64,000 nucleotides of DNA from Salinimonas chungwhensis DSM 16280 (GTDB lineage Bacteria > Pseudomonadota > Gammaproteobacteria > Enterobacterales > Alteromonadaceae), in NCBI RefSeq assembly GCF_000378185.1, contig NZ_KB899376.1:710357-774356 (forward strand), written 5' to 3'. Shown here in pieces: positions 5,427-24,585 of this stretch (position 1 is its first letter; each line of letters opens with the position of its first letter). A model generated the notes under the pieces. It did not search any database, was not told where the DNA came from, and was given only the letters and a program-made list of their open reading frames with translations. The translations under genes and the position numbers were made by a program.

Positions 5427-5996
5427 ATGGGTGGTCAAAATAGTTCAGCGCATTTAACCTCATTCACCAAGCTTCTTCTGCTGTTAGTTATAACAGTCAT
5501 GGCAGGGTGTGCATCACGTCCGCGCGGTGAGTTATTTACTGAATCTGCAATTCAGGTAGATCCTCAGAAGGCGCAGGTAGTGATCTATCATAATCAATCT
5601 TTGGGCTCCGGGTTTTCATTTCTAATGTCTGATGGCAATCAGGATTTAGCTGTTTTGTCTTACATGTCCTTTATGGCTTTGGATGCCCAACCCGGGCCAC
5701 TTGAGATCTTTTCAGATGCAAGGGTGACTAAACTGATTCTTCCTCCGCTGAGTCCGCTGACAGCACCATTAACTGCCATAGGAGTCGCGGCTGATGCTAA
5801 CACCAATAAAAAAGTCGATATGAAAAATATTGCGACGTTGAAGGTACGGGCTGGTGAACAATATTTTTATAAATTAAAGATCGAAAAAAAGGCGTTCCAC
5901 TTTGAAGACGCTACCGCCACACTTGTTGCTGTTGATAAAAAAATTGCTTTACAGGATCTGAAAAAAACCAGGCAAGCTCTGCTTCCCAGTACATAA
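5427..5996 (+). CDS. DUF2846-like lipoprotein
   Basis: The 189-residue product starts MGGQNSSAHLTSFTKLLLLL and has a lipoprotein signal with lipobox MAGC, so the mature protein begins at the cysteine near residue 27. A ribosome site AAGGA lies before the ATG. The body resembles DUF2846 proteins: QKAQVVIYHNQSLGSGFSFLMSDG, a central hydrophobic strand and loop, and the C-terminal pattern EQYFYKLKIEKKAF. Members are small periplasm-facing lipoproteins of unknown role. It stands alone with a long leader that holds a tandem repeat, and its stop is followed by a terminator hairpin shared with the opposite gene. Confidence 0.7.
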   Translation: MGGQNSSAHLTSFTKLLLLLVITVMAGCASRPRGELFTESAIQVDPQKAQVVIYHNQSLGSGFSFLMSDGNQDLAVLSYMSFMALDAQPGPLEIFSDARVTKLILPPLSPLTAPLTAIGVAADANTNKKVDMKNIATLKVRAGEQYFYKLKIEKKAFHFEDATATLVAVDKKIALQDLKKTRQALLPST

Positions 5997-6035
5997 TTTG
6001 AATCCGGTGTTTGTTTCAGTTTGACCGGAAGGTAA

Positions 6036-6074
6036 AGGAAAAAAAGAGCGATGGCTTGAATGTCATCGCTCTAT
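6036..6074 (-). terminator. Intrinsic terminator (minus strand)
   Basis: AGAGCGATG at 6045-6053 pairs perfectly with CATCGCTCT at 6064-6072. On the minus strand the hairpin is followed by a run of seven T, so it ends the cyanophycinase transcript; it also lies just after the lipoprotein gene. Confidence 0.85.
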
Positions 6075-6134
6075 AGCGCGCCGGCAATCTCAAAGCCGCC
6101 ACATCAAAAACCACGTAATTATCCTGTTGACGCC

Positions 6135-7856
6135 TTAAGTGTCCAGGTCGGCGGTTTTCTTATAGGACACTCTCATCCCTTCTATTGCACATCCGTTGTC
6201 TGAGCTGTTGATATCGGCATAGCGAGCTGCACGCGCATCAAATACAAATTTCCAGACCTGCTTTTCGCTACGATGAGACGCCCGCGCATTGTGCTTTCGT
6301 TGACGGCACATTTGTTGAGTGAGACGTCGTAAGTTCGCGTCACTCAGCAAGCTAGTCATATCTGTTTTCAATCGGCCCTGACTGGTCGGTCCCTCGTCAC
6401 TGTCACTGTTACTGTCAGGCGACATATTAATCTGATTATCTGTAATTTTTAGCGGTGTACCCTGGGGATAATAGCTGTATATAAAGCCGTGGCTGGTATC
6501 AGCCTTCACCTTCACCACCCCATGCTCACCCTCAACGCTTGCGCCCGGGCCATTCTTCGTGTGGTCGATTATCAACGCTGTGGTCTCATCCACCCCATAC
6601 CCGAAATGCTGACCGCTATCACGGATCAGCACATGTAACCGCAAAGTTCGATCTCTCTCACTAAAATGCGTATCCATGATCCCCGCGTTGACACGCCCTA
6701 ACCCACCTTCAGGATGGTAGGTCAGTGCATCTGGGTGATATTCGTTTTGGCACTCTTGCTGACAACGCTGGCTCGGCGGTGTTCCGGCAAATGCGCCGTT
6801 TGTCAGTGCCTCCACAGCAGATCCGTTGGATACTATGGGTACCTTTCCATAAACGTTCTCGCCACCGCTTTGTATGGCGGTTCCGGCACTGGTCCCAGCT
6901 ATCACGGGTCGTTGTCGCAAAGTCTCGGTCCAGGGATAAGGCTCCCCATTTTTATTAAACAGGACTTTCCGGATCAGGCTTTGATCGCCACCATTGAACA
7001 TTATTGTTGTAGCGCTACTGATATGATTAACAATGCCCGAAATACCGGCTTCACACAAAAGCGCTTCCTGCTGTGTTCTTACTGGATATACGTGCTCTCG
7101 GGCGAACGTGTTGTGACGCTGTCGGTAAATATCAAGTTTGGCGCAGTCATTTTGCGTCGACGCTTCCGCCAGTGCAGGCGTTAATGGAAGCCACTGTGTC
7201 TCAGTCCTTTCAAAAGTAAACAGTTGTTCATAGAAGTCTACTGATTCGTACGGATCACGGCTTGCTGCTGTAACCACCAAAAGGCGCGGAATTGCCTTAC
7301 CAGGCCCCTGCCCGGCACGCTCTGTGAGTTGTCTGATACGCTCAACAATCCTTAAAGCCGCAGCTGAGCGATTCTGTTCAACTGCGACAACCTCTGCACT
7401 TTGTGGTATCTCTAGACTATCCAACAAGGCGTAATAAACACTGTCACTAAGCTGATCACTATATGGCTTGCCGGCCTCATCCCAGGCTGCTAACAGCGCC
7501 CTTTTGGTCAACCCGGTCTGTGGACTGATAGCTAATTGCGAAATTCGCCTGACGACTATTTGCAGATGAGGTAAATGGGGATCGGTTTGACGTAAAAACT
7601 GTACCGCCTTTTCAAGACGTTTTATTGCCGCGTTGTCGATTTTATACAGTGGCGATTTTTTGCCTTGTGGTACCGCGCCTGTTTGACAGTTTTTGGCTGA
7701 TAACGAACTACAGGTATGCAATGCGCCACCAATCATTACTGTTACATCGGAGGCCTTACAGCTGAGCGAAAAAATACATAGAAATAATATTAAAAGAGCA
7801 GAACGTGCGTGCTTATCACTGCAACTTGCAGAGATCTTATCTATAAATAGCGACAT
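6135..7856 (-). CDS. cphE: Secreted cyanophycinase-type serine peptidase (S51 family)
   Basis: The 573-residue protein has an N-terminal export signal (LLILFLCIFSLSCKA, residues about 21-35; a cysteine is present but the lipobox is not canonical). The catalytic core matches cyanophycinases: a GGDQ segment at 289-292, the nucleophile elbow GTSAGT with Ser323, His397 in DTHFSERDR, and Glu424 in GYGVDETTALI. Cyanophycinases cut the beta-Asp-Arg polymer cyanophycin into dipeptides. At 573 residues it is about twice the length of the intracellular cyanobacterial enzyme, as known for extracellular forms; residues 60-190 and the C-terminal 100 are extra. It is divergent from a TonB receptor, a permease and an isoaspartyl dipeptidase, which together fit cyanophycin use. 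The symbol reflects the extracellular type and is inferred; another S51 peptidase activity is possible. Confidence 0.8.
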   Translation of the reverse strand: MSLFIDKISASCSDKHARSALLILFLCIFSLSCKASDVTVMIGGALHTCSSLSAKNCQTGAVPQGKKSPLYKIDNAAIKRLEKAVQFLRQTDPHLPHLQIVVRRISQLAISPQTGLTKRALLAAWDEAGKPYSDQLSDSVYYALLDSLEIPQSAEVVAVEQNRSAAALRIVERIRQLTERAGQGPGKAIPRLLVVTAASRDPYESVDFYEQLFTFERTETQWLPLTPALAEASTQNDCAKLDIYRQRHNTFAREHVYPVRTQQEALLCEAGISGIVNHISSATTIMFNGGDQSLIRKVLFNKNGEPYPWTETLRQRPVIAGTSAGTAIQSGGENVYGKVPIVSNGSAVEALTNGAFAGTPPSQRCQQECQNEYHPDALTYHPEGGLGRVNAGIMDTHFSERDRTLRLHVLIRDSGQHFGYGVDETTALIIDHTKNGPGASVEGEHGVVKVKADTSHGFIYSYYPQGTPLKITDNQINMSPDSNSDSDEGPTSQGRLKTDMTSLLSDANLRRLTQQMCRQRKHNARASHRSEKQVWKFVFDARAARYADINSSDNGCAIEGMRVSYKKTADLDT

Positions 7857-8227
7857 AAGCTGTGAGCCTTTTTCAGCAATATTGAAGTAAATTTATTGTT
7901 GCCAACCCCATTTTGGGGTGATATAACGAAAAAGACTTGAAGCAAAATTAAGCTAACCCCAGCGGTTCGGTTTGTCAAAATAAATCCAATTACAGCGTGA
8001 AAAATGTTAAAAAAAGCACCTCGCCTTTCAACATATTTTTACTCGCCCCACTACCTGTCGGAGTGGTTTGACGAGTAGGCCACTACCGGTTCTTCCAACA
8101 ACCGGTAGATTTGCTCGTATGCCGATCTCCCTTTCAATTCGTTTCTAATAATTATAACAACAGGCCAGCAGTGTCATTGTGCTATGGGCAACTGACTGCG
8201 TCTATTTGAAAAATCCAGGTAAAAACT
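7857..8227. promoter_or_regulatory. Divergent promoter region of the cyanophycin-type locus
   Basis: This 371-base region separates the cyanophycinase gene from the TonB receptor gene and must hold both promoters. It contains a perfect small palindrome ACCCCA-ttt-TGGGGT at 7905-7919, close to the cyanophycinase start, and a two-stem structure at 8071-8118 in the probable leader of the receptor gene. No promoter boxes stand out. Confidence 0.5.
8071..8118 (+). promoter_or_regulatory. Structured leader upstream of the TonB receptor gene
   Basis: A perfect 9-pair stem CTACCGGTT (8083-8091) with AACCGGTAG (8100-8108) is enclosed by an outer stem ACGAG (8071-8075) with CTCGT (8114-8118). It lies about 110 bases before the receptor ATG. 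No T-run follows, so it is not a plain terminator. It may be an mRNA leader structure or a protein-binding site. Confidence 0.5.
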
Positions 8228-11185
8228 ATGTTTAACAAACTCACAGTCGCCACTGCGGTATCCGCAGCACTGGGCTTCCATGTAGCCGCTCAGGAAAATA
8301 GTAATGAAATAACTACGCAGAAAGTGAACACTCAACAGGAGCAACAGGTTGAACGTATTGATGTGACTGGTAGCCGCATCAAGGGTGTTGATCTTGAAGG
8401 TACTCAGCCTTTGACCGTATTGGATGAGGATTTCATAAAACGTTCCGGCGCCAACAGTATTTACGACTTACTTCGAGATGTTGCCCAGTTACGTGGCGGT
8501 ACAGGAACGTTTTCAACAGCGCAAAGTGGCAGTTTATCAAACTCAACACCAGCCGGTCAGTCGGCGGCAAGCCTGCGTGGTATGGGCCCGTCTTCCACCC
8601 TGACACTTGTCAACGGTCGACGTATCGCACCCAGTTCCTTTGCCGCTGGTACTGAAAACTTTGTTGATGTAAATTCTATTCCGCTGGGGGCCATTAAACG
8701 TATTGAAATTCTGGCAACTGGTGCTTCTGCGGTGTATGGCGCTGACGCGGTAGCCGGTGTTATCAATTATATTCTCAAAGATGATTTTGAGGGTTTCGAG
8801 CTTGATGCGAGTTACGGCAACAGCTTTCACAGCTCTGATGAAAGCCGGGCACAAATTAATGTGCTTTACGGTACAGAACTGGGTAACGGCAATCTGACAG
8901 TATTTGCCGATTATTTTGATCGCGCCGCCTTTCGGGCGATTGATCGGGACTACACCCGTGACCCCGTTCTGCAAAGCAGTTACTCTTATTTACCAAAGCT
9001 TGAAAACGCGCCCAACATCTATTATTTCTCACAGCAGGACTTACTCGAACTTCCCGCGCCAAATTGTAAAACACCATTGGTTACCACGGAGTTTGGTGAA
9101 GAAATCTGTGCTTACTATGGTAATCAGGATGACTATCTGGATACGCCGTTTGAAAGTGTTTCTGCCGGTGCCACTTACACTCATCAGTTTGACAGTCTAA
9201 CCTGGAAAACGGATGTATTTTTTAGTCAGACAGAGTCCACAGCCTATTCTTCACCATCCCCGATAAATCGTCTTGATGACAGTGATGGCCCATTTGTGCT
9301 TGAAGATGCGCTCTTCATGTTTGATCAGCCAGATGGCTCAAATTTTTATCTCGATCAGATGTATATCGACCCGTTTGATTCGGTGGCCGGCCGTGAAGTA
9401 TTTGGTTTTGGCTTTGATGCCCGCTTTACTAACCCGCGCACAGTAGGTATCGAAACCACAAATTACCGGCTGGTTAGCGAACTTTCCGGCGATATTGGTC
9501 AGTGGTACTGGGAGTCCGGTATAACCGTTTCCCGCTCTGAGTCCGAACAGGAAGTTGTTGCGGGGATCTACAATCGCTACAAGTTTCACGCGGCATTGAC
9601 CGGAGAGCTTTGTCAGGATGGTAGTATTGCCAGCTACGACGGCGATATGTTGACTTGTGCGCAAGGTGCACCCCGCCCGTTTTTTAACCCTTTTTTGCTC
9701 AATGATGCACAAAATGATGCAACTCTGGCGCTTACCGAAGCTTTTCCAACCCGAGATGGAGAAAGCGCGGTGTATGCCTGGGATGCCAATATCAACGGTG
9801 ATTTGTTCACTTGGGAGGCTGGTACTGTCAGCGCTGCGTTTGGGCTTGAGATGCGACGGGAAGAGTTATCAGACATCCCTTCTATGAATTCCAGGGCTCG
9901 CGCTGAAAATAATTACCTGGTGGATGTATTTGGATTTGGCTCTAGTGTGGCTGAAGCAGATCGCACTCAATGGGGCGCATTTGCAGAATTTTTTATCCCT
10001 GTTCATGACACGTTCGAAGTTCAGCTAGCCGGTCGCTACGATCATTTTGATGATTTTGGCGGTACCTTCAACCCGAAAGTAGGCTTCACATTTCGTCCGA
10101 TTGACAGTGTCATTTTCAGAGGCTCCTGGTCGACATCATTTCGCGCACCCTCGCTTACACAGGCTGGTATAGAGCTTCGTACCACTACATCAACATTTGA
10201 TTGTGCGGTAAATCAGGCAGTCGCAGACCTTTACTGCATGGGTGATGGCACAGAAGTAACGGTAAATACACTGGAGCTGGGTAATGACGCGCTGCGTGCT
10301 GAAGAATCAGAAGCCATTAGCATCGGATTTGGCTGGAGTCCGGGCGAAAATACGAATCTGACAGTGGATTACTGGCAATTTGATCACGAAGACGTAATTG
10401 ATACCAACATGACAGCGGTACTGGATCGCGCGCTTACCGATTCATCTTTGCGGCACTGCGGCCTGGTACCTACCGACGCTCAGGGGATCGCGTACGAGCA
10501 GGAAGTCTGCGATGTTACGGATGCGGCCGGTTTGACTATTGAACAATCCGGGGCAGATCTTGGGCAAATACTTGATGCTTACATTGCAGAATTTAATCCA
10601 CGTGAAAATGAGCTTTTCCTGCCCCTATCCAGAGATCATGTCATTCCGTTAGAGAACACCGGCACCCAGGAGCTAAGTGGCTTCGATGTTAAATTTGATC
10701 ATCGTTTTGAAATGGACATCGCCGATATCATTTTGCGCGCTGATGCGACGCATTACATCAAGTATGAAAGAAACCGTCCTGGCTCAGACAGCATTGAGTC
10801 CCTGGCCGGTACTTACCGTTACCCGGAAAATGTTGCAACGTTCTCGATTACCTGGAGTGCTGAAGATTACTATGTGCGTCTCAATGCCAATTATACCGAC
10901 AGTTATCTTGACGATATCGAAGGCTTGCGAGGCCGTGAAATTGATGAGCTTATCGAGCTTGGGGCTATCGCAGAGGCTAATGATACGCGCCAGATTGACG
11001 ACTGGCTTACCTGGGATTTGTCGGCAGGTGTGGATATCAGTAAGGCTCTGACGATACGTGCAAACATCGACAATATCACTGATGAAGTGCCGCCTCGGGC
11101 GTATGCTTCAGCCAGAGGCTTTGATGCGATCAATCATGACGCACTAGGTGCAATTTACCGGGTTGGTTTAACCTATCGCTTTTAG
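8228..11185 (+). CDS. TonB-dependent receptor, probably for cyanophycin fragments
   Basis: The 985-residue outer-membrane receptor has a signal peptide (MFNKLTVATAVSAALGFHVAAQ), a TonB-box-like segment VERIDVTGSRIKG near residue 42, a plug domain to about residue 175 (DEDFIKRSGANSIYDLLRD, LRGMGPSSTLTLVNGRRI, IKRIEILATGASAVYGADAVAGVINYILK), and a long beta-barrel that ends in GLTYRF with terminal aromatic Phe. It belongs to the large receptor group common in Alteromonadales that includes peptide and polysaccharide importers. The gene is divergent from a secreted cyanophycinase and followed by a permease and a dipeptidase, so beta-Asp-Arg dipeptides or short cyanophycin pieces are the likely cargo; this is inference from context. 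A possible ribosome site CCAGG precedes the ATG. Confidence 0.85.
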   Translation: MFNKLTVATAVSAALGFHVAAQENSNEITTQKVNTQQEQQVERIDVTGSRIKGVDLEGTQPLTVLDEDFIKRSGANSIYDLLRDVAQLRGGTGTFSTAQSGSLSNSTPAGQSAASLRGMGPSSTLTLVNGRRIAPSSFAAGTENFVDVNSIPLGAIKRIEILATGASAVYGADAVAGVINYILKDDFEGFELDASYGNSFHSSDESRAQINVLYGTELGNGNLTVFADYFDRAAFRAIDRDYTRDPVLQSSYSYLPKLENAPNIYYFSQQDLLELPAPNCKTPLVTTEFGEEICAYYGNQDDYLDTPFESVSAGATYTHQFDSLTWKTDVFFSQTESTAYSSPSPINRLDDSDGPFVLEDALFMFDQPDGSNFYLDQMYIDPFDSVAGREVFGFGFDARFTNPRTVGIETTNYRLVSELSGDIGQWYWESGITVSRSESEQEVVAGIYNRYKFHAALTGELCQDGSIASYDGDMLTCAQGAPRPFFNPFLLNDAQNDATLALTEAFPTRDGESAVYAWDANINGDLFTWEAGTVSAAFGLEMRREELSDIPSMNSRARAENNYLVDVFGFGSSVAEADRTQWGAFAEFFIPVHDTFEVQLAGRYDHFDDFGGTFNPKVGFTFRPIDSVIFRGSWSTSFRAPSLTQAGIELRTTTSTFDCAVNQAVADLYCMGDGTEVTVNTLELGNDALRAEESEAISIGFGWSPGENTNLTVDYWQFDHEDVIDTNMTAVLDRALTDSSLRHCGLVPTDAQGIAYEQEVCDVTDAAGLTIEQSGADLGQILDAYIAEFNPRENELFLPLSRDHVIPLENTGTQELSGFDVKFDHRFEMDIADIILRADATHYIKYERNRPGSDSIESLAGTYRYPENVATFSITWSAEDYYVRLNANYTDSYLDDIEGLRGREIDELIELGAIAEANDTRQIDDWLTWDLSAGVDISKALTIRANIDNITDEVPPRAYASARGFDAINHDALGAIYRVGLTYRF

Positions 11186-11186
11186 C

Positions 11187-11246
11187 GATGGCGTTAACCG
11201 CCATCACGGTTGTCATCTTGCCGGGCGAACCTACTTGGCGCCCGGC
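11187..11246 (+). promoter_or_regulatory. Two tandem hairpins between receptor and permease genes
   Basis: Hairpin one is GATGGCG-ttaac-CGCCATC (11187-11193 and 11199-11205), starting 2 bases after the receptor stop. Hairpin two is GCCGGGCG (11220-11227) with CGCCCGGC (11239-11246). Neither has a T-run. They end 5 bases before the permease ribosome site, and could stabilise the upstream message or lower expression of the downstream genes. Confidence 0.6.
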
Positions 11247-11263
11247 ATCTCAGGAAGTCATTC

Positions 11264-12673
11264 ATGTCATCTCAGATGAAGTCTCACACTTTTCCCAGCG
11301 CCAGCGTTATTTTGCTCTCGGTGGCTATTATTGCCTATTTGAGCGCATTTCTGGTAACGCCCGGCTTTTTCGACATTGCTGATGAGAATCAGGATGTAGG
11401 GTTAAGCCAGTTTGTATACGCCAATGATAAAGGTGGCGCCCGGCTCTTTGGTGAGCAGGGTAATATTGGTTTGCTCAATGTACTATTTGAAGGAATGGTA
11501 GCGGGCAATAAATTTGGTGCCACCATTGGTGTTGCTGCCTTTATTCTCATTACTGGTGGTGCGTTTGGTGTGCTGATGCACACCGGTGCCATTAATCGTG
11601 GTGTACTTGCTCTGGTAGCGCGAACCCAACGATTTGAAAGTCTCTTCCTGCCGCTGTTATTTATTTGTTTTTCTCTGGGCGGTGCAATTTTTGGAATGGG
11701 CGAAGAAGCCATTGCTTTTTGCATTGTACTATTGCCCGTCATGCGCCAGTTGGGATACAACGCGCAGGTGACTGTACTGGTAACTTACGTTGCAACGCAG
11801 ATTGGCTTTGCCACATCGTGGATGAACCCATTTAGCATTGCGATAGCTCAATCCATCGCCGATATTCCGGTATTTTCAGGCGCTTCGGTGCGTATTGCCG
11901 CATGGCTATGCTTTACCGCCGCGGGGTTAATTTTCCTGCTTCGATATGCCGCAAAAACCCGTGCGGAAAAAGCCCCGCCAGAACATCCGATGGCTCACCG
12001 CCTCGTCCTGACAGATAAGCTGATACTGATGTCTTTTATAACGGTTATAGGCTGGGTTATATGGGGAGTTATTGTTCGTCAGTATTATATTCCTGAGCTT
12101 GCGGCGCAATTCTTTACGCTGGGTGTTGTAGTGGCAATAATCGCCAGAGTCGGTCAGGGCACCAGCTTTAGTCAAAGCGCCGATAAATTTGTTGACGGCG
12201 CACAGGAGTTGCTACCAGCCGCATTACTTGTGGCTCTGGCCAAAGGTATCGTCTTACTGCTGGGAGGCAACGATCTGCAGGCACCTTCGGTGTTAAATAC
12301 TGTGCTTTTTCATTGTGCCGCGGCATTGTCTTCGGCCCCTGACTTACTTACCGCCTGGGGAATGTTTGCGTTTCAAAGCCTGTTCAATTTTTTCGTGGCT
12401 TCTGGTTCTGGGCAAGCCGCCATCACCATGCCAATTATGGCACCGCTGGGCGATCTACTTAATATCAGCCGCCAAACAGTCGTGCTTGCGTTTCAGCTTG
12501 GTGATGGACTGACCAACATTATTATTCCCACCTCAGCCAGCCTGATTGGTTGCCTTGGCGTCGTCAAACTGGACTGGGCTAACTGGGTTGCCACTATCTG
12601 GCGTTTTCAGTTGTGTCTTTTCGCGCTTGCCAGTTGTTTTGTCGTAGGCGCTCACCTTTTCAATTACTCTTAA
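11264..12673 (+). CDS. YfcC-family permease (basic amino acid / dipeptide transporter)
   Basis: The 469-residue inner-membrane protein has about 12 hydrophobic segments. It carries YfcC-family signatures: GANKFGATIGVAAFILITGGAFGVLMHTGAI-like region near residues 80-115 (written AGNKFGATIGVAAF in part), SLGGAIFGMGEEAIAF, and TQIGFATSWMNPFSIAIAQSIA. I chose the ATG at 11264 because AGGAA lies 7 bases upstream; in-frame codons before it have no support. YfcC proteins are annotated as putative basic amino acid or C4-dicarboxylate carriers, few with proven substrates. The position between a receptor for probable beta-Asp-Arg and a cytoplasmic isoaspartyl dipeptidase suggests it carries the dipeptide across the inner membrane; this is inference. 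The dipeptidase start follows its stop by only 3 bases. Confidence 0.8.
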   Translation: MSSQMKSHTFPSASVILLSVAIIAYLSAFLVTPGFFDIADENQDVGLSQFVYANDKGGARLFGEQGNIGLLNVLFEGMVAGNKFGATIGVAAFILITGGAFGVLMHTGAINRGVLALVARTQRFESLFLPLLFICFSLGGAIFGMGEEAIAFCIVLLPVMRQLGYNAQVTVLVTYVATQIGFATSWMNPFSIAIAQSIADIPVFSGASVRIAAWLCFTAAGLIFLLRYAAKTRAEKAPPEHPMAHRLVLTDKLILMSFITVIGWVIWGVIVRQYYIPELAAQFFTLGVVVAIIARVGQGTSFSQSADKFVDGAQELLPAALLVALAKGIVLLLGGNDLQAPSVLNTVLFHCAAALSSAPDLLTAWGMFAFQSLFNFFVASGSGQAAITMPIMAPLGDLLNISRQTVVLAFQLGDGLTNIIIPTSASLIGCLGVVKLDWANWVATIWRFQLCLFALASCFVVGAHLFNYS

Positions 12674-12676
12674 ATA

Positions 12677-13852
12677 ATGGTTTCTATGTTAACACTTATT
12701 AAAAATGCCGATGTTTACTCACCGCAGCCTTTAGGGCAGCAGGACATGCTAATTGCCGGCCAGCACATACTATCCATCGCCCCGTCAATCGAACTAAATA
12801 CCAATGTTGCTGTGACATGCATTGATGCCTCAGGATGTATTATCACGCCGGGATTTGTAGACTCGCTGGTACATGTTTGTGGCGGCGGCGGCGAAGACGG
12901 GTTTGCCAGCCGCACACCCGAGATGCAACTGACCGATGCAACCTTATCAGGCATTACCACAGTAGTCGGTGCGCTGGGCACTGATTCAATAGCCAGAACG
13001 CATTCGAATCTGGTTGCTAAAACAAAAGGCCTAAGAGAAGAGGGGCTTAATGCCTACTGTTACACCGGCTCGTATCATTTCCCGGCCCCTACTCTCACCC
13101 AGTCTTTAGAAAATGACATTATGTTTGTCGACGAAATAATTGGGGTGGGCGAAGTCGCCATCAGCGATCACCGCAGCTCTCAGCCGTGCGCTCAACGTCT
13201 TGCTGAACTGGCATCCCATGCTCGCGTCGCCGGCATGCTGAGCAAAAAACGTGCGCCAGTCAGTATCCATGTCGGCCCTGCAGATACCCATCTTGCACTG
13301 CTTCACGAGGTAGCTGAAAATTATGATGTTCCACTGAATCGTTTTTATCCAACGCACATTAACCGAAACCGCGCGCTACTTGATGCAGGAATCCGTTTTG
13401 CTGCCGGTGGCGGCACCATTGATTTTACTACCAGTACCACAGAGTATGATCTTGCGCACGGCGAGTACGCAGCGGCGGCAGCCCTGGCTTACGCATTAAA
13501 CGCCAACACCGATCCCACTCGGCTTACCATGAGTTCAGATGGCCACGCTAGCTTACCGGTGTTTGATGATAGTAATAACCTTATCGGACTGGAAGTGGGA
13601 CGGGAAGTCTCGTTGCTCGATGCTTTTGTGGATGCAGTTAAAAAATATGGTGTGCCGCTGGAGCATGCATTGATGTCAGTGACGTCAAATCCAGCAGATG
13701 TGTTGGGAATTAAAAAAGGCCAGCTTGCTGCAGGCGCTGATGCAGATTTGCTGATTTTAGACAGCCAGCGTCTTCGCCCCATACATGTTTTCAGCCGTGG
13801 TCAGCACATGGTAGAAGAAGGAAAAGCGATTATAACCGGTCGGTTTGAATAA
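12677..13852 (+). CDS. iadA: Isoaspartyl dipeptidase with altered metal site
   Basis: The 391-residue protein aligns over its whole length with E. coli IadA, an amidohydrolase that splits beta-aspartyl dipeptides. Substrate residues are kept: Glu in GGGGEDG, Tyr in TGSYHFP, Arg in ISDHRSS, Arg in HINRN, and Ser after the catalytic Asp in SSDGHAS. Metal ligands are mixed: the second His of the HxH motif, His in SIHVG, His in PTHINRN and Asp in SSDG are present, but the first HxH His is Leu (DSLVHV) and the carboxylated Lys is Glu (GEVAISDHR). I checked both codons, CTG and GAA. The gene starts 3 bases after the permease stop without a clear ribosome site, so coupled translation is likely. In context it would release Asp and Arg from imported beta-Asp-Arg. 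An ATG at 12686 is an alternative start. Confidence 0.85.
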   Translation: MVSMLTLIKNADVYSPQPLGQQDMLIAGQHILSIAPSIELNTNVAVTCIDASGCIITPGFVDSLVHVCGGGGEDGFASRTPEMQLTDATLSGITTVVGALGTDSIARTHSNLVAKTKGLREEGLNAYCYTGSYHFPAPTLTQSLENDIMFVDEIIGVGEVAISDHRSSQPCAQRLAELASHARVAGMLSKKRAPVSIHVGPADTHLALLHEVAENYDVPLNRFYPTHINRNRALLDAGIRFAAGGGTIDFTTSTTEYDLAHGEYAAAAALAYALNANTDPTRLTMSSDGHASLPVFDDSNNLIGLEVGREVSLLDAFVDAVKKYGVPLEHALMSVTSNPADVLGIKKGQLAAGADADLLILDSQRLRPIHVFSRGQHMVEEGKAIITGRFE

Positions 13853-13959
13853 CGATACCTCGCCATCGTTGTCGATCTGCTGCAATACCGCTACCAAAAG
13901 AACCATATACGCACATTACAAGTAGTTAATATGCAGCACTTAACGAAGGTATAGCGGTA

Positions 13960-14538
13960 ATGAGTCACGAAAATATAATGGATTTGCTGGATACGCTGGT
14001 AGAAGATACAAACGATGAAGTTACGGTAGATGATGTCGTGGCCAACTTCAAGGAAAGAGGATTCGGCCCCCTCATTCTGATACCGGCGCTTATTGCATTA
14101 TTACCCACAGGCGCTATTCCCGGTGTTCCCACCGTTTGCGGTATTACACTTTTTCTGGTCTGTATACAGATCGCCGGTGGCAGGAGTCATCCCTGGCTGC
14201 CTGCTCGTTTAAGAAACCGTTCTATCTCTCACGATAAACTGGTCAAAGCAGCCGATAAAGCCCGGCCCTATGTGAAAAAGCTGGAATCTCTGTTTCATCC
14301 AAGATTTACGAAACTGACCGAGTCACCGGCAAAAAACGTCGTTGCTTTTTACTGCGGCGTTGTTGCTCTGTGCATGATTCCATTAGAAGCGATGCCCTTT
14401 GCCGCTGCGCTACCTGCGTTTGCGTTATGTATTACCGCCATTGGTATTACTAACTGTGATGGTCTGGTTATGACCATTGGCCTTGTCCTTCAGGCGAGTA
14501 CGGGTATCTTACTTTTTCAGGTAATAGGCATGCTTTGA
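13960..14538 (+). CDS. ExoD-family exopolysaccharide synthesis protein
   Basis: The 192-residue membrane protein matches the ExoD family: an acidic N-terminal helix (MDLLDTLVEDTNDEVTVDDVVANFKERGFG), then hydrophobic segments PLILIPALIALLPTGAIPGVPTVCGITLFLVCIQ, a cytoplasmic loop (GGRSHPWLPARLRNRSISHDKL), and two or three further helices. The P-TGAIPGVPT motif is typical. ExoD was named from rhizobial exopolysaccharide mutants, but its biochemical role is not known. It follows the dipeptidase after 107 bases and probably has its own promoter, so it need not belong to the cyanophycin locus. Its stop is 2 bases from the end of the opposite gene. Confidence 0.8.
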   Translation: MSHENIMDLLDTLVEDTNDEVTVDDVVANFKERGFGPLILIPALIALLPTGAIPGVPTVCGITLFLVCIQIAGGRSHPWLPARLRNRSISHDKLVKAADKARPYVKKLESLFHPRFTKLTESPAKNVVAFYCGVVALCMIPLEAMPFAAALPAFALCITAIGITNCDGLVMTIGLVLQASTGILLFQVIGML

Positions 14539-21891: not shown

Positions 21892-24585
21892 ATGCTTCGA
21901 CTTTCGCGCATTGCTTGTCACTGTTATGCAATCTTAGGCCTTGGGGCTGCACCGTTTTTTGTTAATGCCGGCGAGATTAACGGTCAGCTTACTAATGATG
22001 ATAATTCACGGGTTTTTGCTGGCGCGCAAATTCGTCTTCAAGAGCTGAATCTTACGACAACGTCTGGCCGCGACGGTAGCTTTAGGTTCCCCTCTTTACC
22101 TGCGGGCACATATACATTGAAAGCGAGTTACCTTGGTGCTGCGCCAGTGACCCAGCTAGTTACACTGACAGATGATCAAACAGTTACCCCCGTTATAACG
22201 CTGAGCGAAAATACTAATTCATTAACTGACATTCTTGTGCGTGGTCAACGCAGCGGCCAGGCTTCAGCGATTAATAAACAGCGGGTATCGTCTCGTATAT
22301 CGTCTATTGTCTCTGCAGACGCAATTGGCCAGTTCCCAGACCAAAATGCAGCAGAAGCGCTACAACGTTTGCCTGGCATATCGCTGGAGCGGGACCAGGG
22401 CGAAGGCCGGTTTGTTGGTATCCGTGGTATTGACCCAAACCTTAACAATGTCACCATAAATGGTCTCAATATCCCCTCTCCCGAGTCAGGCGTTCGCTCC
22501 GTGGCCCTGGATGTAATCCCGTCAGAATTAATCCAGACCCTTGAAGTTTCAAAGTCAGTTACACCGGACATGGATGCAGACGCTATTGGTGGCGCCATCG
22601 ACGTGAAAAGTGTCAGTGCCTTCGATTATCCTGGTTCAACGGCCAGTGTGACGGCACAGGCCAGTCAGAATCAACTGGTTGACAAAACCAGTCCTAAATT
22701 ATCAGCTAAGATGACCAAAAAGTTCAGTGACTCAGTAGGGATTGCTGCTGCGCTGTCCTGGTTTGATCGGGATTTGGGCTCCGACAACATTGAGAGTAAC
22801 GGTGAAGACGAGCTGGAACAGCGAGAATACAATATCAACCGTGAACGGCTTGGTGGTGCAGTCAACCTTGACTGGCGACCTGATTTTAACAACCAGTACT
22901 TTTTGCGCACGCTATACAGCCAGTTTGCCGATGACGAATACCGACAGGCAAATATCTATAGTTTTGAGGGTGAGGATTCTCAGATAGAAAGAGAAAGTAA
23001 GGACCGATACGAAGAACAGTCGATTTTTACAGTAAGTGGCGGTGGTGAACATCAGTTAGGCGTATGGCTGATTAACTGGCAACTTGGCTATGCAAAATCT
23101 GACGAAGATGAGCCCGACGCTTTGTATTATGTTTTTAAGACTGACAATGACAGTATTACAACAGATCTAAATACCCAAATCCCCGTTGTCACCCAAAATG
23201 CTGCGGCTACTGACCTTTCGACATATGAGACCGATGAAGTCAGCTTCGAAGATAATTACACCAAAGACACAGAAACCAGTATTAAAATCGACGTTATTCG
23301 ACCCTTAGTGATTGCTGGCGTAGAAACCGAGCTGAAGTTCGGTAGCAAATACCGCATGAGAGAAAAGAATCGCGACAGTCAGGTATTTATTTACGATGAT
23401 GGTTTTAGCGATATGTCTGCACAGCAATACGCAACAGGCAGTCCTGACTGGCAATTCGGCGATTTTGGACCCGGTCTTGACCGTCAGGGTATGCGGACTG
23501 ATTTTAATAGTAACCGGCAACAGTTATCACTGGCAGCGCTGGACTCAGAAGTTGAATCTAACGGCGCCTCCTATGTTAACAACGAAGACATATTTGCCGC
23601 GTATGGAATGCTGACCGCACAGTTTGAAAAGTTGCAGATCGTGGCGGGCTTACGTTATGAACACACCGACTTCAGCACCGCAGGAATGCGTGTTGAATTG
23701 GTTGAAAACGAACAAACTGGCGAGGAAGGCGTTCGGAATACGCCATGGTCGACGCAACGTGACTATGACTACCTGCTGCCCAGTATCAATTTGCGCTATG
23801 ACCTGACCGATAAGGTATTACTTCGCGGAGCGTACACCCAGACACTCGCACGTCCAAAATTCGAAGATGTGGCTGCATTTCAGATAATTCAAAGTAGTAC
23901 TGAAGAAGATGAAGGCGCCTTTGTTACCGAGCGCGAGGCGGAAGTGGGGAACCCGGATCTTCAACCCTATGAATCGAGTAATTTTGATTTATCAATCGAG
24001 TATTATCCTGGCGCTGTGGGGGTATTATCGGCGGGATATTTTTATAAGGATATAGATAATTTCGTGGTGTTCGCCGATGTTGCCGGAACCAGTGAATGGG
24101 AAGGATTTGACGAGGTGATTCAGCCGGTCAACGGAGAATCGGCGAGTCTGCAGGGCGTGGAGCTGTCCTGGGTAAAGACATTCAACAACGGATTGCTCCT
24201 GTCAGCAAATGGCGCCATCACAGATTCAGAGGCAACCACACTGCTTGATGGTGAATCATTTAAAACCCGCCTGCCTAATCAGTCTGACAAAATCGGCAAC
24301 CTGGCCGTAGGCTACGAAAATAACACCGTTAGTCTGCGGCTTACACTGGCATACAAAAGCGATAACTTTGAAGAGCTTGATGGCGAGATGCTGCGCATCG
24401 AAGACAGTCATCAACAACTCGACTTTACCGGAAAATATTATTTCGATGATTCTATGATGGTGTACTTCAACGGCGTTAATCTGACGAACGAGCCCTATTA
24501 TCATTACTTTGATCAGCCAGACAGAAATGCCCAATACGAAAAGTATGGTCGCACATTTGAAGTTGGCTTTACCTGGCGCATGTAA
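21892..24585 (+). CDS. TonB-dependent receptor with N-terminal carboxypeptidase-like domain
   Basis: The 897-residue receptor has a signal peptide ending near NAGE (residue 27), then a carboxypeptidase-regulatory-like beta-sandwich (residues about 28-105: GEINGQLTNDD, GRDGSFRFPSLPAGTYTLKASYLG), a plug (QNAAEALQRLPGISLERDQGEGRFVGIRGIDP split over 165-200, then LDVIPSELIQTLEVSKSVTPDMDADAIGGAIDV), and a barrel ending RTFEVGFTWRM. This layout is common for Alteromonadales receptors for large or charged nutrients. The next gene is a beta-propeller phytase, so inositol phosphates are the suspected cargo. A terminator follows the stop, yet the phytase is only 106 bases further. Confidence 0.88.
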   Translation: MLRLSRIACHCYAILGLGAAPFFVNAGEINGQLTNDDNSRVFAGAQIRLQELNLTTTSGRDGSFRFPSLPAGTYTLKASYLGAAPVTQLVTLTDDQTVTPVITLSENTNSLTDILVRGQRSGQASAINKQRVSSRISSIVSADAIGQFPDQNAAEALQRLPGISLERDQGEGRFVGIRGIDPNLNNVTINGLNIPSPESGVRSVALDVIPSELIQTLEVSKSVTPDMDADAIGGAIDVKSVSAFDYPGSTASVTAQASQNQLVDKTSPKLSAKMTKKFSDSVGIAAALSWFDRDLGSDNIESNGEDELEQREYNINRERLGGAVNLDWRPDFNNQYFLRTLYSQFADDEYRQANIYSFEGEDSQIERESKDRYEEQSIFTVSGGGEHQLGVWLINWQLGYAKSDEDEPDALYYVFKTDNDSITTDLNTQIPVVTQNAAATDLSTYETDEVSFEDNYTKDTETSIKIDVIRPLVIAGVETELKFGSKYRMREKNRDSQVFIYDDGFSDMSAQQYATGSPDWQFGDFGPGLDRQGMRTDFNSNRQQLSLAALDSEVESNGASYVNNEDIFAAYGMLTAQFEKLQIVAGLRYEHTDFSTAGMRVELVENEQTGEEGVRNTPWSTQRDYDYLLPSINLRYDLTDKVLLRGAYTQTLARPKFEDVAAFQIIQSSTEEDEGAFVTEREAEVGNPDLQPYESSNFDLSIEYYPGAVGVLSAGYFYKDIDNFVVFADVAGTSEWEGFDEVIQPVNGESASLQGVELSWVKTFNNGLLLSANGAITDSEATTLLDGESFKTRLPNQSDKIGNLAVGYENNTVSLRLTLAYKSDNFEELDGEMLRIEDSHQQLDFTGKYYFDDSMMVYFNGVNLTNEPYYHYFDQPDRNAQYEKYGRTFEVGFTWRM

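Follow-up and report, generated by a model that had tools for sequence, protein, structure and literature searches.

Cyanophycin is a nitrogen-rich storage polymer of cyanobacteria and other bacteria; cyanophycinases release beta-Asp-Arg, which isoaspartyl dipeptidases split. A cyanophycin utilisation locus was reportedly described in a Bacteroidetes strain (Ben Hania, 2017). Here, a stretch of 64,000 nucleotides from Salinimonas chungwhensis DSM 16280 (contig NZ_KB899376.1, positions 710,357 to 774,356; hereafter the window) was analysed for a locus in which a gene for an S51 peptidase lies divergent from genes for a TonB-dependent outer-membrane receptor (TBDT), a YfcC-family permease and an IadA isoaspartyl dipeptidase, and the four genes were found likely to form a module that scavenges nitrogen and carbon from external cyanophycin or a closely related compound, as judged from residues, gene context and a structure model.

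Clusters of a cyanophycinase gene with iadA or iaaA and a transporter gene have been reported, with a cyanophycin utilisation locus cited from Ben Hania 2017, in the available part of one paper (PMC10206079), and in the window too a predicted cyanophycinase (the S51 protein, so classed by residues and predicted fold), an isoaspartyl dipeptidase and a transporter are clustered. As far as that text goes, the present locus differs in its gammaproteobacterial rather than Bacteroidetes host and in the near-constant presence of a TBDT and a YfcC permease. The S51 protein resembles CphE of Pseudomonas anguilliseptica BI and P. alcaligenes DIP1 (available part of PMC3235067) in being an S51 protein with a seemingly exported-type N-terminus, a Ser-His-Glu triad, a Gln/Asp/Thr/Arg/Arg/Arg pocket with Thr for Gln173 of CphB and a His-Glu spacing of 27, but is longer (573 against about 420 aa), carries a helical insertion behind the first strand as well as a Ser-His stretch of 74 rather than 53 residues, and belongs to a family with five invariant cysteines; this comparison rests on the published CphE residues and on a CphE-like protein from genome G806, not on the CphE sequence itself. 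TBDT uptake of cyanophycin was proposed in 2012 from a neighbouring cyanophycinase gene in Citromicrobium sp. JLT1363 (PMC3400609), so the view of the first-pass annotation that a TonB-dependent route was not well described had to be corrected. That proposal likewise came from gene context, but from proximity in one strain, with permease and dipeptidase unmentioned in the part of the paper available. Similarly, cyanophycinases have been noted in Thalassotalea and Pseudoalteromonas tunicata, with a TBDT link unmentioned in the available parts of the papers (PMC7564069, PMC2536512), and a literature search by title and start of abstract, with few subscription journals covered, found no experiment on TBDT uptake of cyanophycin. 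Since the TBDT route was already proposed and cyanophycin utilisation loci are known, the locus is a variant on a known theme: the reaction and the locus type are known, and new are the unusually long S51 enzyme and the near-constant TBDT and YfcC members.

Searching 394 genomes of the order with an S51 family profile (E 1e-20 or better) located the family in 41 genomes at 44 places, all of which were read. A nine-residue cyanophycinase signature, made up of the triad and six CphE pocket residues, was intact in 33 places, with YfcC near 33/33, IadA near 32/33 (the other cut by the contig) and TBDT near 30/33, and broken in 10, with YfcC, IadA and TBDT near 0/10 (as near relatives are not independent, these order-wide counts are no probability). 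The last place (L105) was cut by the contig within the S51 gene and had all three partners. Across the order, the partner genes go hand in hand with an intact signature, in retention as in loss. The four genes were complete in 30 of the 44 places, 26 times in the divergent layout of the window and 4 times on a single strand; in L094, L097, L100 and L105 the order TBDT-yfcC-iadA-S51 was found on one strand, with iadA and the S51 gene overlapping by 1 or 4 bases.

The broken S51 copies could have been one old side branch, and this was ruled out, as the S51 tree had at least four changes of state between intact and broken forced by well supported branches, although its details are unsure because several rows have long branches or odd composition. 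In this tree, two broken copies were neighbours of intact copies from their own genus (L092 next to L082, L106 next to L087). Some genomes with a broken S51 copy also gave no close IadA when searched for it: none was found in G073, G087, G097, G1127 and G903, only matches of at most 26 bits in G998 and G1110, and only a single copy on another contig in G857 (42% identical) and in G913 (40% identical), while the single IadA of G1136 lies beside its intact S51 copy (in G1127, G903, G998, G1110, G857, G913 and G1136 the genome-wide search covered IadA, not YfcC or TBDT). Five S51 open reading frames (ORFs) from one genus (g16; L046, L047, L101, L103 and L104) are 592-604 aa long and were found to have neither catalytic residues nor partners nearby; as these frames stay open, they are possibly pseudoenzymes with another role.

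The same linkage was seen closer to the window. Among 98 genomes of relatives, including its own and with 59 in the genus, the S51 family was found in 16, of which 10 in the genus, and the same 10 of the 59 carried IadA and YfcC at more than 50% identity. The arrangement recurred in 10 of 12 named loci, the other two being cut by the contig start, and of the 27 first-fetched loci with an S51-family ORF, 22 had all four genes, 2 were cut by the contig start and 3 were without partners or triad (L049, a weaker S51 relative in G019, was not counted). Four contigs of the named set (L025, L026, L027 and L030) seem to be the same as L072, L071, L074 and L073 of the order-wide set, and the two sets were never summed. 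Counting ORFs of at least 120 aa, only these four families were common to all 22 complete loci, with the next commonest neighbours in 7 loci. By name, the hosts of complete loci include Lacimicrobium, Thalassotalea, Colwellia, Thalassomonas, Aliiglaciecola and Shewanella. That the S51 gene is a chance neighbour was ruled out by the co-occurrence in the genus, the four families common to 22 loci and the order-wide partner counts. Recurrent co-occurrence of the four families in related genomes, which the first-pass annotation had set beforehand as a test of its four-gene cyanophycin-use reading, was found both in the 22 first-fetched loci and in the 33 intact loci of the order, and that reading is supported by this linkage, by the joint keeping or loss of partners and signature, and by the match to the CphE pocket.

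The match to CphE was examined in an alignment of 24 S51 sequences (A1, from which L044, with its broken frame, and L046, L047 and L048, with their broken signatures, were omitted). The triad of the window protein, claimed beforehand as Ser323, His397 and Glu424, was found at those positions and was invariant in 24/24 sequences, as were five cysteines, which would fit an exported protein. The pocket of the window protein (Gln292, Asp395, Thr396, Arg401, Arg403 and Arg406) equals the published CphE set, and equals that of CphB (Q101, D172, Q173, R178, R180 and R183) save for Thr in place of Q173; in the available part of PMC3235067, CphE keeps the Gln, the Asp and the three Arg and has its Thr223 at the Gln173 position. 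Thr396 alone as a marker of external enzymes was ruled out, as 12 short CphB copies had Gln in 8, Ser in 3 and Thr in 1 (L066, beside cphA). The G806 protein (420 aa from its likely start) shows the published CphE spacing, with Gln-Ser 35, Ser-His 53 and His-Glu 27 residues apart, and all 24 family members scored higher by BLAST with it than with the CphB of the window's own genome, in a comparison with one sequence per kind of which the former is longer. An AlphaFold model built from the 24 aligned sequences (mean pLDDT 85) gave a predicted fold that is cyanophycinase-like: its best PDB matches were 7uqw, a PCC6803 cyanophycinase with bound cyanophycin dimer, the cyanophycinase 3en0 (E 6.1e-11) and the pseudo-CphB 7uqv, with PepE-type dipeptidases ranking behind. 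The N-terminus forms a hydrophobic helix in the model, and AxA-like sites were seen by eye in several relatives, which suggests that the protein may be exported; a type II secretin of the genome, over its cut-off, would allow export beyond the periplasm.

In the proposed pathway, the exported S51 protein would act as an extracellular-type cyanophycinase, cutting the poly-Asp backbone outside the cell or in the periplasm, and would release beta-Asp-Arg (and beta-Asp-Lys) dipeptides. Dipeptides or short oligomers would be imported across the outer membrane by the TBDT, and dipeptides or oligomers across the inner membrane by the YfcC permease, and IadA would split them in the cytosol to aspartate and arginine. 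With moderate confidence, we propose that the TBDT is a dedicated TonB-dependent importer of beta-Asp-Arg or cyanophycin oligomers within a four-gene unit that is gained and lost across the order, and that, once the import half is lost, decay turns the exported cyanophycinase into a protein without catalytic function.

A number of results weigh against a cyanophycin module, some through the S51 protein and its substrate and others through the TBDT. The window S51 protein scored 21.7 bits against Pfam S51, slightly below the gathering score of 23.9, and 69.2 bits (E 3.5e-19) against the TIGR02069 cyanophycinase profile, below the cut-off of 126.6, and so is not filed as that equivalog. The CphE-like G806 control also fell short of this cut-off (115.1 bits), so that the miss alone is no exclusion of an external cyanophycinase, and TIGR02069 was matched at E 0.001 or better by 24/24 aligned family members, with a weak PepE match also in one of them. 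In one genus member (L044, G034 contig 5), counted among the 22 complete loci, stops lie inside the S51 gene while the TBDT, YfcC and IadA frames are open, which reflects either recent decay or an assembly error. S51 proteins with the signature and without the module exist outside the order (L050, L107). The two arms of the locus would be co-regulated, and no ArgR box better than in dinucleotide shuffles was found in 23 divergent intergenic regions (lowest shuffle fraction 0.17). Finally, the IadA and IaaA enzymes encoded in cyanophycin clusters act on various beta-aspartyl dipeptides, two isoaspartyl dipeptidases having been shown to be promiscuous in the available part of PMC10206079, and substrate specificity consequently rests on the S51 protein. 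This promiscuity would also fit a module that serves, by the same route, a different polymer or peptide of isoaspartyl or branched aspartate type, such as isoaspartyl peptides of aged proteins or a cyanophycin-like polymer with a different composition, as would the pseudo-CphB among the best structural matches and the distance of the S51 family from CphB, along with the long insertion and C-terminal part particular to the family. We consider this unlikely, as the triad and six CphE pocket residues were kept in all 33 readable module-linked copies (the interrupted L044 lying outside this sample) and the family is nearer to the CphE-like protein than to the genome's own CphB.

On the side of the TBDT, identity to the window protein falls in two classes (55-86% and 30-42%). 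Its model had a pLDDT of 72.8 with plug parts below 50, and reading the cargo from structure was abandoned, as the closest folds were siderophore, colicin and B12 receptors and no cargo was readable. The TBDT was absent near three of the 33 intact loci (L080, L083 and L099), of which L080 and L099 are second copies, with S51-yfcC-iadA on one strand, and their genomes each have a complete locus too. The genome has 36 TBDT matches over the cut-off, so a TBDT beside any gene is not rare; a further one was observed in the window at about 23092-24483 on the forward strand (G000:C1:733448-734839). These findings are compatible with a receptor that takes up something else, such as a siderophore, and stands outside the pathway, with the dipeptides crossing via porins. 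Such a reading is improbable given that the TBDT stood near 30 of the intact loci and none of the broken ones and leads the single-strand row in four loci. It is also disfavoured by a class-wide sample (369 genomes, 47 places), where, among the best 24 of the 47, a TBDT was present in the stretch for 7/9 long S51 copies with motif, the window included (those without being L050 and L051), against 0/12 short CphB copies, 9/12 of which were near cphA (L053, L067 and L070, with no readable motif, are left out of this comparison). In other families, an S51 domain fused to or beside an Asparaginase_2 (IaaA-type) partner with a TBDT near was counted in favour of the cyanophycin module, and in L054, L055 and L068 (the last by a custom profile only) the next gene to S51 encodes such a protein with a signal-like N-terminus.

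Two further arrangements were observed in other families. In L052, an ORF at 9012-11042 encodes an S51 cyanophycinase-like domain fused to an Asparaginase_2 domain of isoaspartyl peptidase type, with TBDT and FecR genes near. In G806 (L107, 9367-16415), the CphE-like gene is accompanied by a second S51 gene (possibly with an SLH domain), an OprD-family porin gene and two genes for family-3 binding proteins. The porin, present here instead of a TBDT, is a further point for passage via porins, and suggests that a porin and a TBDT may be able to replace one another at the outer-membrane step.

Elsewhere in the window's own genome, on another contig, is a canonical cphA-cphA'-cphB-iadA cluster (L033, contig 17, 4567-11418; cphA 1141.5 bits, cphB 268.3 bits, iadA 385.5 bits, with cphA' a cphA-like second gene), and so the organism probably makes and uses cyanophycin of its own. 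The CphB of this cluster shares with the window protein the S51 fold family, the triad and an adjoining iadA, but is short, is without a signal-like N-terminus, has a DQHF motif, and lies in a cphA cluster with no TBDT in the stretch. With cphA, cphA', cphB and iadA together in one genome, the window locus could be thought to recycle the organism's own cyanophycin, for example after lysis of sister cells. We regard this as very improbable, as the cphB and iadA of the canonical cluster could already take care of internal turnover and as cphA (over its 850-bit cut-off) was found in 4 of the 59 genus genomes (G000, G007, G018 and G039) and the S51 family in 10, with both only in G000, the genome of the window.

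The layout of the locus is given in Table 1. The four genes claimed at 6135-13852 were found there exact to the base in the ORF list, with the S51 gene divergent from the TBDT-yfcC-iadA arm, and the 3-base gap between permease stop and iadA start was borne out by the ORF coordinates. The calls of the TBDT, YfcC and IadA families made by the first-pass annotation held against curated cut-offs: the TBDT had barrel (PF00593, 119.6 bits) and Plug (PF07715, 68.7 bits) domains over theirs, the permease scored 351.4 bits with DcuC (PF03606) and 566.4 bits with YfcC (NF008611, cut-off 500), and the dipeptidase scored 440.6 bits with TIGR01975 (cut-off 331.25) and was near the solved IadA structures 7cf6 and 1onw. 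As most full-length permease relatives align only from about residue 15-26, translation of the permease more likely begins at an in-frame ATG located downstream of this TTG. Scans of 5990-14000 for promoters (7 found, 10.5 expected from shuffles) and terminators (9 found, 8.3 expected) gave no clear excess, and no regulator was conserved among the neighbours (ORFs of at least 120 aa) in the 22 complete loci.

Table 1. Features of the four-gene locus in the window
Feature	Position	Strand	Length
S51 peptidase with signal-like N-terminus, CphE type with helical insertion and C-terminal extra part	6135-7856	-	573 aa
Divergent intergenic region between the two arms	7857-8227		371 bp
TBDT, predicted importer of cyanophycin dipeptides or oligomers	8228-11185	+	985 aa
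YfcC-family (Pfam DcuC) inner-membrane permease	11210-12673	+	487 aa from TTG start
IadA isoaspartyl dipeptidase without signal-like N-terminus, predicted cytosolic cleavage of beta-Asp-Arg	12677-13852	+	391 aa

The way in which scavengers bring cyanophycin across the outer membrane has been predicted. Being compact, widespread (in about a tenth of the sampled genomes of the order, 41/394) and easy to delete or express, the module would make TonB-dependent uptake of cyanophycin products directly testable. It also provides a residue signature and a partner set for cyanophycin scavenging, which the TIGR02069 cut-off misses for both the window protein and the CphE-like control.

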